Shown: piece after piece, positions 1,960 through 21,595 of the stretch
Layout of the letters: each line of letters starts with the position of its first letter
Position numbering within the stretch: the stretch's first letter is position 1
Origin: a virus
Length of the DNA stretch: 22,197 nucleotides
Direction: 5' to 3' (one strand)
Virus record (IMG/VR): IMGVR_UViG_3300044984_000203
Coordinates: 1 to 22,197 of that record
Translations under genes and position numbers: made by a program
Notes under the pieces: model-generated
The model's database searches: none
Told to the model about the DNA's origin: nothing
What the model saw: the letters and a program-made list of their open reading frames with translations, nothing else

Positions 1960-3101
1960 TGGCTGATACACAAGAACAAATTCAGTATGATAAAGACCTT
2001 GCTGCTCTTAACGGTTTTGATGGTGCAGCACGCATACGTGCCAAAGAGGCATTTGATATTAAATATCCTAAGGGTCGTCCAGATTCAACTGATATAGGTT
2101 CAGACAAAGGTACCGCTCCTGGAACTGCATGGATTTATGATGATGCAACCAAGAAGTGGGTTAAGCCAGAACAGCCAATAAAAGGAAATAAAACTTTTAC
2201 TTGGGACGATAATAAAGGCTGGGTAGAATCTGGTGTTAATACAACTGGTTTAACAGTAGGTATTGGATTTGTTCTTACTAAAGCACTTCTTGAGGACCCT
2301 ATATATGGTATAGGAAAAGGTGGCTTGCAAGAGGTTTATGACCTATGGGCTGCTGGCGACGAAACCGCAGCACTTGATGCTTACTTTAAGACTAATTACT
2401 ATTTAAAACTAGGAAGAACTGCTGCTACTCGTTATGCATTAAGCAAGAACCAACCAGAAGTTTACGCTGCTGATGAGGCTGCTTATATATCAGAGCAAAC
2501 AAATCGTCTCTTTAAACTAGGTGTTCGAGTTGACGACGCAGAACTTATTAAATTATTAAAGAAGGCATACTCTGGCAACCTTACTATATCCCAACTAGAT
2601 GCATCTATTGCAGCATCAAACAGTTTTGGTGGTAAGTTCGGTGGAACAATCCTTACGGCAATACAAGAATTTAAAAACATTGCTCGCTCTTATGGACTAT
2701 CATACACAGAAGCAAAGTATAATCAGTGGGGCGCTGACTTATTTGCAAATAAAATTACTGACTCAGAGATTGAAGAAGCAATCAAGACTGAATCAGCAAG
2801 CAAGTATCCAGCATTCGCAGACAAGATTATGAAGGGTGTAACAATGGATGCACTAGCATCTTCTTATAAGTCTTCAATGGCTTCAATTCTTAGTCTTGAT
2901 GCAGACTCCATCGGATACGATGACCCAACCCTTAACAAGGCCTTGCAGTATATCGGTCCAGATGGCAAGCCTGTAAGCAAGCCACTATGGGAGTTTGAAT
3001 CAGATTTACGTGCTGACCCACGTTGGCAGTTCACAGACAACGCTAGAGATACAGTTGATTCTTTACAATATAAAGTTTTGAAAGACTGGGGGCTAATCTA
3101 A
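1959..3101 (+). CDS. Putative virion-associated protein, 380 aa
   Basis: The TAATG start overlaps the previous stop by one base. The N-terminal 95 residues contain two short repeats built around WxxDxxKxW (WIYDDATKKW near 58-67 and WDDNKGW near 82-88). The rest is helical and ends in a segment with SLWEFE-like and LRADPRWQFTDNAR motifs. I associate that ending with long uncharacterised structural proteins of actinobacterial phages, but this is recollection and not a search. A short hydrophobic stretch (about 98-112) is too weak to call a membrane helix. The next gene starts directly after its stop codon. An ejection or head-associated role is plausible but unproven. Confidence 0.6.
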   Translation: MADTQEQIQYDKDLAALNGFDGAARIRAKEAFDIKYPKGRPDSTDIGSDKGTAPGTAWIYDDATKKWVKPEQPIKGNKTFTWDDNKGWVESGVNTTGLTVGIGFVLTKALLEDPIYGIGKGGLQEVYDLWAAGDETAALDAYFKTNYYLKLGRTAATRYALSKNQPEVYAADEAAYISEQTNRLFKLGVRVDDAELIKLLKKAYSGNLTISQLDASIAASNSFGGKFGGTILTAIQEFKNIARSYGLSYTEAKYNQWGADLFANKITDSEIEEAIKTESASKYPAFADKIMKGVTMDALASSYKSSMASILSLDADSIGYDDPTLNKALQYIGPDGKPVSKPLWEFESDLRADPRWQFTDNARDTVDSLQYKVLKDWGLI

Positions 3102-17900: not shown

Positions 17901-18053
17901 TTACTCTTGGTATTCCTCTTCGAGGTCTTCCAAGAATCTCTCGTATTGCTTTCCTCGAATTCGTGCTTTAACATCGTAGTAGGCTGCCTCTAGGGCATAG
18001 AATACAACGATACCAGTAAGTGAAGCCAGTGCTACTTCTAGAAAATTTGACAT
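17901..18053 (-). CDS. Small leftward membrane protein, 50 aa, unknown function
   Basis: This is the only gene read leftwards in the window. AAGGAG (18063-18058 on the - strand) lies four bases before the ATG at 18053, and a near-perfect promoter stands upstream at 18158-18131. The protein starts MSNFLEVALASLTGIVVFYA, one transmembrane helix (about 4-24), then a basic turn (VKARIRGKQ, 28-36) and an acidic, Glu-rich C-terminus (40-50). The positive patch after the helix suggests the C-terminus is inside the cell. It is too short for homology by eye. An early membrane effector (superinfection exclusion, holin control or host take-over) is possible, but this is inference. Confidence 0.7.
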   Translation of the reverse strand: MSNFLEVALASLTGIVVFYALEAAYYDVKARIRGKQYERFLEDLEEEYQE

Positions 18054-18130: not shown

Positions 18131-18158
18131 ATTATACACGTATTTTTTCAGATGTCAA
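18131..18158 (-). promoter_or_regulatory. Consensus sigma70 promoter for the leftward gene
   Basis: On the - strand: TTGACA (18158-18153), a 16-bp spacer and TATAAT (18136-18131), both perfect matches to the consensus hexamers. The start site should be near 18124, giving a leader of about 70 nt to the ATG at 18053. Confidence 0.85.
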
Positions 18159-18176
18159 TTATTTAAATGTTTGACA
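18153..18176. promoter_or_regulatory. Imperfect 24-bp palindrome joining the two -35 boxes (candidate operator)
   Basis: TGTCAA, TT, ATTTAAAT, GT, TTGACA: 20 of 24 positions obey two-fold symmetry. Both outer arms are -35 hexamers, so a dimeric regulator bound here would block or organise both promoters together. Part of the symmetry follows simply from the two -35 boxes facing outwards. Confidence 0.5.
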
Positions 18177-18200
18177 GATACCCAACTGTGGTCTTATACT
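18171..18200 (+). promoter_or_regulatory. Rightward early promoter, predicted leaderless
   Basis: TTGACA (18171-18176), an 18-bp spacer and TATACT (18195-18200). Six bases follow, then the ATG at 18207. No Shine-Dalgarno is present before that ATG, so the transcript probably begins at or next to the start codon. Confidence 0.7.
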
Positions 18201-18206
18201 TGAACC

Positions 18207-18398
18207 ATGTCAATCAAACTAGAAGAATATACTCTACCAGAGCACATATCGTACTCTGCATTCACTACCTACCTTACGTGTGGGTATCAATACTACCTCG
18301 GCAGACTCCTCAATAAGGAGGAAGCCCCATCCGTCTGGTCTGTTGGCGGTTCAGCGTTCCACCTAGCGTGTGAAAACTACGACAAGGAGAACGTATGA
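18207..18398 (+). CDS. Cas4/RecB-like PD-(D/E)XK nuclease, N-terminal half, 63 aa
   Basis: It carries the N-terminal motifs of Cas4/RecB-type exonucleases: ISYSAFTTYLTCGYQYYLGR (14-33), with Cys25 in the place of the first iron-sulfur ligand, and VGGSAFHLACENY (46-58) with His52 and Glu56 (motif I). It stops there. The active-site Asp/Lys residues and the other three Cys are in the next gene, which overlaps by four bases (ATGA). Together the two products make one full-length domain, so I read this as gene fission. No Shine-Dalgarno precedes the start (predicted leaderless mRNA). A sequencing error at the junction is less likely, because the ATGA junction is a normal coupled start. Confidence 0.75.
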   Translation: MSIKLEEYTLPEHISYSAFTTYLTCGYQYYLGRLLNKEEAPSVWSVGGSAFHLACENYDKENV

Positions 18399-19006
18399 GC
18401 GTACAGCAACTATGGGACCAAGCATGGGTTGAGTGCAAAGGTGACACCGACCTAACCAATGCTCGCGTTGGCGGTCGTGCAACCAAGGCTAACCCTAACA
18501 AAGAAGACGTTACCTTCTGGCAAAACCAAGGACCCAAGTGGGTTGAGGCTTACATTGCATGGCGTAAGGCTAACCCTACATGGAATATCTGGACAGCACC
18601 AGATGGAAACCGAGCAATTGAACTTGCCCTGACTCCCGTAGTCAAGGATGTTCAAGTCAAGATGATTATTGACCGCGTATTCGAAGTCAATGGTGAACTT
18701 GTAATTGTCGACTTAAAGACATCTCAGAATACTCCAACTAGCAACCTTCAACTTGCCTTCTATAAACTTGGGCTGGAACAACAGTTCGGTATCAAGGTCA
18801 AGTGGGGTACGTATTACATGTCACGTGGTAATAACATCTCAGAGATGGTAGACCTATCTGAGTACACCTACGACAAAATGGAATACCTAATAGAAACATT
18901 TGACAAAGCCCGTAAGGCTGCGTTATTCTTACCCAACACAAACAGTTGCCAGTACATGTGCGGACTCACGGAATACTGTCAATTCTCTATTAAGAAGGAT
19001 AAATAA
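18395..19006 (+). CDS. Cas4/RecB-like PD-(D/E)XK nuclease, C-terminal half, 203 aa
   Basis: It holds the catalytic core of the split nuclease: KMIIDRVF with Asp93 (motif II), LVIVDLKTS with Asp106 and Lys108 (motif III, D-x-K) and QLAFY with Gln119 and Tyr123. The C-terminus has CQYMCGLTEYC (Cys185, Cys189, Cys195), the three C-terminal ligands of a 4Fe-4S cluster, whose fourth Cys is in the preceding protein. Residues 1-60 align by eye with the region that normally follows motif I. Such enzymes trim or recombine phage DNA ends. It heads the replication block, directly before a zinc-ribbon protein. Confidence 0.8.
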   Translation: MSVQQLWDQAWVECKGDTDLTNARVGGRATKANPNKEDVTFWQNQGPKWVEAYIAWRKANPTWNIWTAPDGNRAIELALTPVVKDVQVKMIIDRVFEVNGELVIVDLKTSQNTPTSNLQLAFYKLGLEQQFGIKVKWGTYYMSRGNNISEMVDLSEYTYDKMEYLIETFDKARKAALFLPNTNSCQYMCGLTEYCQFSIKKDK

Positions 19007-20416: not shown

Positions 20417-20762
20417 GGCTAGAGGTGCAACCTATGAAACCGACATCCGAGACTGGTTTAGAGCAAATGGATACGATAGTGAACGACTTGCTCGAACAGG
20501 TGCGAAAGACGAAGGAGACGTTGTTGTCCGTAAAGACTTCCTTGGCTCAATTGGGGTTATTGAATGTAAGGCTCCAGGAGCAGGCAACGCCATTGACCTT
20601 AGTGGATGGACAAAAGAAGCACAAGTGGAAGCCGTACATTACGCAGAAGCCAGAGGGCTTACGCGAGAGCAGGTAATGCCAGCAGTACTAATCAAAGCAA
20701 GAGGCAAGTCAATAGCAGATTCGTATCTAGTATTAAGGTTGGGCGATGTATTTGGTGGATGA
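20394..20762 (+). CDS. Holliday-junction-resolvase-like PD-(D/E)XK nuclease, 122 aa
   Basis: Three in-frame ATGs lie close together (20382, 20388, 20394). I choose 20394 because the product then begins MTTRKSHKARGATYE, as expected for Hjc-like enzymes. The catalytic set is Glu15 (GATYE), Asp42 (DEGDVVV) and Glu57-x-Lys59 (VIECKA), followed by Gln77 and a hydrophobic strand VMPAVLIKARG. This fits small archaeal-type resolvases and phage relatives that cut branched DNA in recombination or before packaging. It overlaps the preceding small gene by 23 bases and the primase zinc-finger gene by up to 17. A general VRR-type nuclease is the alternative. Confidence 0.7.
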   Translation: MTTRKSHKARGATYETDIRDWFRANGYDSERLARTGAKDEGDVVVRKDFLGSIGVIECKAPGAGNAIDLSGWTKEAQVEAVHYAEARGLTREQVMPAVLIKARGKSIADSYLVLRLGDVFGG

Positions 20763-21120
20763 CTTACCAGACATAGTAGCGGTGTTGAAGCACTACGGTG
20801 CCAACATTACTCGAGCGTCTGGTCAAGTCAACGTCAAGTGTCCGTTCCACAATGATAGTCATGCAAGTGCAAGTTTCAATACAAGACAGAATATTTTTAA
20901 TTGCTTCGCGTGTGGTATGCAAGGCAATAGCATTCAAATAATTGCTAAGAGAGAAGGGTGTGATATACGTGAAGCAAAGTCTATCGCAGAAGGAATTACT
21001 GGGGAGAGCAACGAGCAAGTACGCGGGAAACATCTCTCTGGCGGAAGATTACCTAGCAAGTCGGGGAATAACAAAGGAAGTAGCGCGTCTGGCGCGATTA
21101 GGCGTAGTAGAGGAACCTGA
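20746..21120 (+). CDS. DNA primase, CHC2-type zinc-finger part, 124 aa
   Basis: The zinc site is plain: CPFH (Cys32, His35) and CFAC (Cys53, Cys56), with HASASFN between them and GNSIQIIAKREGC after, as in DnaG-type primase zinc domains. The domain proper ends near residue 88. The remaining 36 residues are basic and Gly/Ser-rich and run in a different frame over the start of the next gene. The start is either ATG 20746 or GTG 20755; no strong Shine-Dalgarno decides it. The catalytic TOPRIM part is in the overlapping gene. Confidence 0.75.
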   Translation: MYLVDDLPDIVAVLKHYGANITRASGQVNVKCPFHNDSHASASFNTRQNIFNCFACGMQGNSIQIIAKREGCDIREAKSIAEGITGESNEQVRGKHLSGGRLPSKSGNNKGSSASGAIRRSRGT

Positions 21121-21595
21121 ACCTGGACATGAACAGTACACGGGTCGCCTCAGCATACCGTACATTACAAAGACTGGCGTTGTTGACCTGCGCTTTCGCT
21201 CTCTTAACCCTGCCGTTGAACCGAAGTATATGGGTATGGTCGGTGTTGATACTCGCATGTACAACGTACTTGACATTGAGACTGCTGGAGATTGGATTGG
21301 TGTCTGCGAAGGAGAGTTGGATACGCTTACTATGTCTAAGTTGGTCGGAATTCCCTGCGTTGGCGTTCCTGGGGCGAACTCTTGGAAGAAGCACTATACA
21401 AGATTGTTGGCCGATTTCGAACGCATCTTCGTCTTTGCCGATGGTGATGCCCCAGGGCGTGAGTTCGCGGCAAGTTTATCTAGAGAACTTCCTGTCACTA
21501 CAGTTACATTTGGAGACGGAGAAGATGTTAACAGTGCTTATATCCGATACGGAGCGCAATTTATCAGAGAAAAAATGGGGTTAAACGTTGATTGA
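20942..21595 (+). CDS. DNA primase, TOPRIM catalytic part (start uncertain), 217 aa or less
   Basis: The TOPRIM motifs are VCEGELDTL (121-129, Glu123) and FADGDAPG (165-172, Asp167/Asp169). Before them lies the N-terminal catalytic subdomain with SLAEDYLASRGIT (32-44) and GRLSIPY (68-74). The frame opens with no ATG; TTG 20942, GTG 20960 and GTG 20969 are possible starts, none with a well-placed Shine-Dalgarno. It overlaps the zinc-finger gene by 179 nt in the +1 frame, so it is made by internal initiation or by a +1 frameshift that yields a full primase. No helicase domain follows; the ATPase at 19455 may serve that role. Confidence 0.75.
   Translation: MLREKGVIYVKQSLSQKELLGRATSKYAGNISLAEDYLASRGITKEVARLARLGVVEEPEPGHEQYTGRLSIPYITKTGVVDLRFRSLNPAVEPKYMGMVGVDTRMYNVLDIETAGDWIGVCEGELDTLTMSKLVGIPCVGVPGANSWKKHYTRLLADFERIFVFADGDAPGREFAASLSRELPVTTVTFGDGEDVNSAYIRYGAQFIREKMGLNVD

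Follow-up and report, generated by a model that had tools for sequence, protein, structure and literature searches.

Two overlapping genes of a freshwater actinobacterial phage carry the divided motifs of a Cas4-like iron-sulphur nuclease

The gene pair and its signals

The window analysed here, i.e. the whole stretch of 22,197 nucleotides of the viral record IMGVR_UViG_3300044984_000203, carries on its plus strand two overlapping genes, both of which match the PF12705 profile. Gene 1 (18207..18398) was read as an ORF for an N-terminal chain of 63 amino acids, and gene 2 (18395..19006) as an ORF for a catalytic and C-terminal chain of 203 amino acids in the -1 frame relative to gene 1. Their junction is an ATGA start/stop overlap (18395..18398, plus strand), which was read in the sequence as the first-pass annotation had described it. 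That annotation mentioned neither the Shine-Dalgarno motif of gene 2 (AAGGAG; 18384..18389, plus strand), located inside the end of gene 1 and 5 nt before the ATG of gene 2, nor the near-consensus sigma-70-like promoter TTGACA-N18-TATACT (18171..18200, plus strand; 11 of 12 consensus positions), 6 nt before the ATG of gene 1, nor the conservation of the split described below. Among the 102 distinct pairs with the same -1 frame, the 4-nt overlap was present in 100, as was a Shine-Dalgarno core within the end of gene 1, and 99 of the 102 with enough upstream sequence have a -10-like hexamer 4-9 nt in front of the ATG of gene 1. Pairs of the +1 type mostly miss the Shine-Dalgarno core (present in 16 of 64). 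Judging from these signals, gene 1 of the -1 type would be transcribed from its own promoter, probably as a leaderless mRNA, and gene 2 would be translated right behind it via the overlapping start and the internal Shine-Dalgarno motif, so that both chains would be made together; in the +1 type such coupling would rest on the overlap.

A second promoter-like sequence with all 12 consensus positions, TTGACA-N16-TATAAT, is located at 18131-18158 on the minus strand and points away from the nuclease genes. It faces a 50-aa ORF with a hydrophobic N-terminus (17901-18053, minus strand), and a small ORF resembling the latter is present in the contig L135. The primase of the window, too, seems to be divided between two ORFs: a CHC2 zinc-ribbon ORF of 124 aa (20746-21120, plus strand) is overlapped in a different frame by a TOPRIM ORF (20942-21595, plus strand, 217 aa as listed).

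The first-pass annotation proposed a Cas4/RecB-like nuclease with its iron-sulphur ligand residues in two proteins, and both the motifs and the profile matches bear this out. The residue numbers that it gave proved exact. Gene 1 encodes Cys25 (codon 18279-18281) and the motif I His52 (codon 18360-18362), while gene 2 encodes D93, D106-x-K108, the QhXXY motif Q119-L-x-x-Y123 and C185-x3-C189-x5-C195. The alignments show no variation, among split and single-chain relatives, at C25 and H52 of gene 1 or at D93, D106, K108, C185, C189 and C195 of gene 2; the QhXXY motif of gene 2 is likewise invariant. All RecB motifs, I (His), II (Asp), III (D/ExK) and QhXXY, are thereby present, divided over two genes, and the iron-staple pattern of one N-terminal and three C-terminal cysteines is found across gene 1 and gene 2 taken together. 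In Cas4 proteins the cluster is coordinated by four cysteines distributed in this way (PMC4176176). Since both [4Fe-4S] and [2Fe-2S] clusters occur with the same four cysteines among these proteins (PMC5704561, PMC4176176), the type of cluster cannot be told from the sequence.

Gene 1 matched PF12705 (PDDEXK_1) with 27 bits over profile positions 1-50 and gene 2 with 39.8 bits over positions 83-247, the Pfam gathering cutoff being 22 bits. Both halves thus exceed the cutoff in complementary ranges, so that little of the domain is missing, in agreement with the earlier impression that no domain region was lost. The PHROG exonuclease families phrog_69 and phrog_1870 were also matched by both halves in complementary ranges. 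An assignment to the CRISPR-associated Cas4 family (TIGR00372) was rejected, gene 2 scoring 34.7 bits against an equivalog threshold of 65. The phage exonucleases of pfam12705 are single chains, whereas two cistrons were found in 293 of 293 distinct pairs; the pair is therefore filed as a split variant and not as an ordinary member of this family. In our judgement it is quite probable that each cistron encodes one half of a Cas4-like nuclease of the iron-staple kind (pfam12705), and that the halves assemble with a shared cluster.

Conservation of the split and nature of the junction

Scans of viral contigs (IMG/VR) yielded 487 split loci, in which the same contigs often recur; with the distinct DNA pair as the counting unit, they represent 293 distinct gene pairs, all of them split. 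All eight key residues are kept in every full-length pair of this set; three further pairs are truncated where their contig ends. Gene 2 occurs without gene 1 only where the contig ends first or where the locus belongs to a single-chain relative. Only two phage records are close, OX376640 and OX376641 (75% for gene 1 and 56% for gene 2), which are the two cultured 'Ca. Planktophila' phages LanE43AprE7 and F5 (PMC10202952). The genes are split in OX376641, where the junction was read as an ATG overlap in a frame other than that of the window, and OX376640, with matches at 31715-31894 and 31887-32486 on the plus strand, has the same layout. The pattern of a leaderless gene 1 was seen in the -1 type and not in these two phages. 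No relative was detected among bacterial genomes in a single scan of genome contigs.

Among phage records, single-gene relatives were found in mycobacteriophages, Propionibacterium/Cutibacterium phages and other actinophages. The comparison with homologues suggested in the first-pass annotation thus gave single genes outside the clade and split genes inside it, with one re-fused exception (L481). In the tree a branch with support 97/94 separates all split pairs from the single-gene forms, which indicates one origin of the split clade. In two single-chain relatives, L239 (about 1629-1796) and L241 (about 2996), the N-terminal Cys/His part is in frame but without an ATG, GTG or TTG start; the start codon may be an ATC that follows a purine-rich stretch in the same frame.

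Gene 1 and gene 2 alike are under strong purifying selection. For the -1 type the median dN/dS is 0.04 in gene 1 and 0.086 in gene 2; for the +1 type the corresponding values are 0.063 and 0.081. Gene 1 is constrained at least as much as gene 2, which argues against gene 1 being a leftover.

The only re-fused form in the split clade is a 253-aa ORF of L481 (1336-2097), which joins both halves and keeps every motif. It differs from the split relative L486, 99% identical to it, by a 16-nt deletion at the junction, between TATGA and AATGA. The fusion was seen in one contig beside 293 split pairs, a pattern scan revealed no second fused contig, and L481 may be an assembly error. With so small a deletion, a single short step suffices for re-fusion, which is compatible at least with an unbroken reading frame.

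The two halves are not always adjacent. Nine arrangements with other ORFs between them were found, with a spacing of 0.14-0.96 kb: the insert is about 0.3 kb in the L308/L314/L411 types, 0.14-0.25 kb in L163, L090, L347, L377 and L507, and comprises two ORFs in 0.96 kb in L280/L281/L283. The ORFs between the halves in L280 are located at 2045-2368 and 2361-3017; its 218-aa ORF is weakly similar to DUF7574 (E 1.8e-5, below the cutoff), and its 107-aa ORF is similar to the insert of L308/L314.

Such spacing would suit another explanation, according to which gene 1 encodes an independent small protein (a regulator, adaptor or inhibitor) and gene 2 a lone, trimmed PD-(D/E)XK nuclease with no intact cluster, the more so as gene 2 carries motifs II, III and QhXXY, residues that are critical for Cas4 cleavage (PMC4176176). 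We regard this as rather unlikely, because no full-length pair has lost the Cys or His of gene 1 or any of the three cysteines of gene 2, both genes are always together where the contig is long enough, gene 1 still aligns to the fused enzymes in the same way, and a natural re-fusion, that in L481, exists.

A further possibility is a single protein made across the junction, either through programmed frameshifting or through ribosome bypass, and the window does have a -1 overlap with an SD-like AAGGAG close by. The frame of the junction is -1 in the type of the window and +1 across the subclade of the Planktophila phages; moreover, L031, L089/L149 and L095 have a +1 junction, although they are isolated close relatives of the window. 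Over the final 60 nt of gene 1, none of the 167 distinct pairs of the first set has a slippery heptamer XXXYYYZ, which extends the same observation in the first-pass annotation for a -1 frameshift, and no single translation event could fuse halves separated by other ORFs, as in the nine arrangements described above. With junctions of both frames and no heptamer, a fusion by programmed frameshifting was rejected as highly improbable. A homing-endonuclease origin of the split was also rejected, as there is no endonuclease gene at the break in the window and no such domain in the inserts of relatives that were scanned. It is also highly improbable that the split stems from an error of assembly or sequencing, or from the decay of a pseudogene: the record is a metagenomic fragment, but the split recurs in 293 distinct DNA pairs, far more than chance would give, and in the two cultured isolates, contradicting the indel that the first-pass annotation had named as a possible refutation, and a dN/dS of 0.04-0.09 in both genes is not that of a pseudogene.

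A predicted two-chain nuclease

The model of a single-chain relative, L225 (mean pLDDT 86), matches ACE1, AdnA, AddB, Dna2 and Cas4 over its full length (Foldseek, lowest E 2.7e-10); VIA-align superimposed it on AdnA and ACE1 with Z 16-17 over 227-230 residues (rmsd 3.3-3.7). The split position maps to the loop 58-63 of L225, directly after the His helix (42-57), and this loop is a natural place for a cut. When gene 2 of the window was modelled alone, the pLDDT was 70, and the matches of its core to the same nucleases were confined to residues 31-185. The three-Cys segment (178-203) had a pLDDT of 32-41, compared with 83-96 for the C-terminal end of L225. This fits a dependence of the three-Cys segment on gene 1, although it does not amount to proof, and the low values may partly come from the prediction of a single chain without its cofactor.

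The best reading of the pair, suggested by the sequences, is an obligate two-chain iron-staple nuclease of the phage replication module. The 63-aa chain would supply the helix with the first cluster Cys and the helix with the motif I His, and the 203-aa chain the PD-(D/E)XK core together with the remaining three cysteines. The two chains are predicted to assemble into one nuclease fold with one active site to which each contributes. The Fe-S cluster of this fold would pin two polypeptides to each other, as it pins the N-terminus to the C-terminus in single-chain relatives. The putative sharing of cluster and active site follows from the established chemistry of Cas4, where one N-terminal and three C-terminal cysteines act together (PMC4176176). 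The enzyme probably serves for DNA-end trimming or resection in phage replication or recombination.

The cysteines of one Cas4 protein, Pcal_0546, are dispensable for cleavage (PMC4176176), so that the activity of the pair would not have to depend on a shared cluster. A stronger version of the two-chain reading, which we put forward tentatively and consider possible but doubtful, is that the cluster is an obligatory staple between the chains, so that the nuclease exists only after Fe-S loading, and assembly is switched by iron or oxidation. Selection would then maintain the split, as the loss of 16 nt, seen once in L481, is enough to re-fuse the genes, yet almost no lineage is fused.

Whether the cluster in this group has a structural or a DNA-binding role, or is dispensable, is debated (PMC4176176). 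Should the two chains assemble, they would form a natural two-chain iron-staple nuclease whose cluster and active site span the interface, and titration of one half with the other would provide a direct test of what the cluster does. The system would offer a natural split-nuclease pair of 63 and 203 residues with a natural fused control. The hosts, 'Ca. Nanopelagicales', are freshwater actinobacteria that are among the most abundant freshwater bacteria.

Comparison with known systems

The nearest described proteins are the 'Cas4 family exonucleases' of cluster-A-like mycobacteriophages and of Propionibacterium, Rhodococcus and Streptomyces phages (pfam12705, phrog_69/1870), which have the same motifs with four cysteines and the same neighbourhood, including a nearby DnaB-like helicase, and are 26-32% identical to the pair over the whole length. 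Wherever their reading frame was read, they are encoded by one gene as one chain, whereas the pair consists of two. The fold of the single-chain relative is that of the AdnA/AddB nuclease domains, Dna2, ACE1 (9iab/9iac) and Cas4 (4ic1, 8d3l, 4r5q), in which one N-terminal and three C-terminal cysteines hold the cluster. The pair has the same cysteine pattern, but in those enzymes all cluster ligands belong to a single chain and not to two cistrons.

Conserved domains cut into two polypeptides that reassemble are known from NrdA-a/b of Aeh1, gp43A/B of Aeromonas phage 25 and the T4 topoisomerase (PMC2988022). These cuts are tied to homing endonucleases or spacer insertions (PMC2988022), while the nuclease pair has overlapping cistrons and a cut through the predicted metal-cluster site. 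In the literature searched no report of a split Cas4/RecB nuclease was found; reassembling split phage enzymes being already known, what appears to be new, within that literature, is a nuclease cut through its metal-cluster site. Fe-S clusters with ligands from two chains also occur in the nitrogenase Fe protein and in DPOR, which are not nucleases. Their cluster is redox-active, in contrast to the predicted cluster of the pair, which is probably structural.
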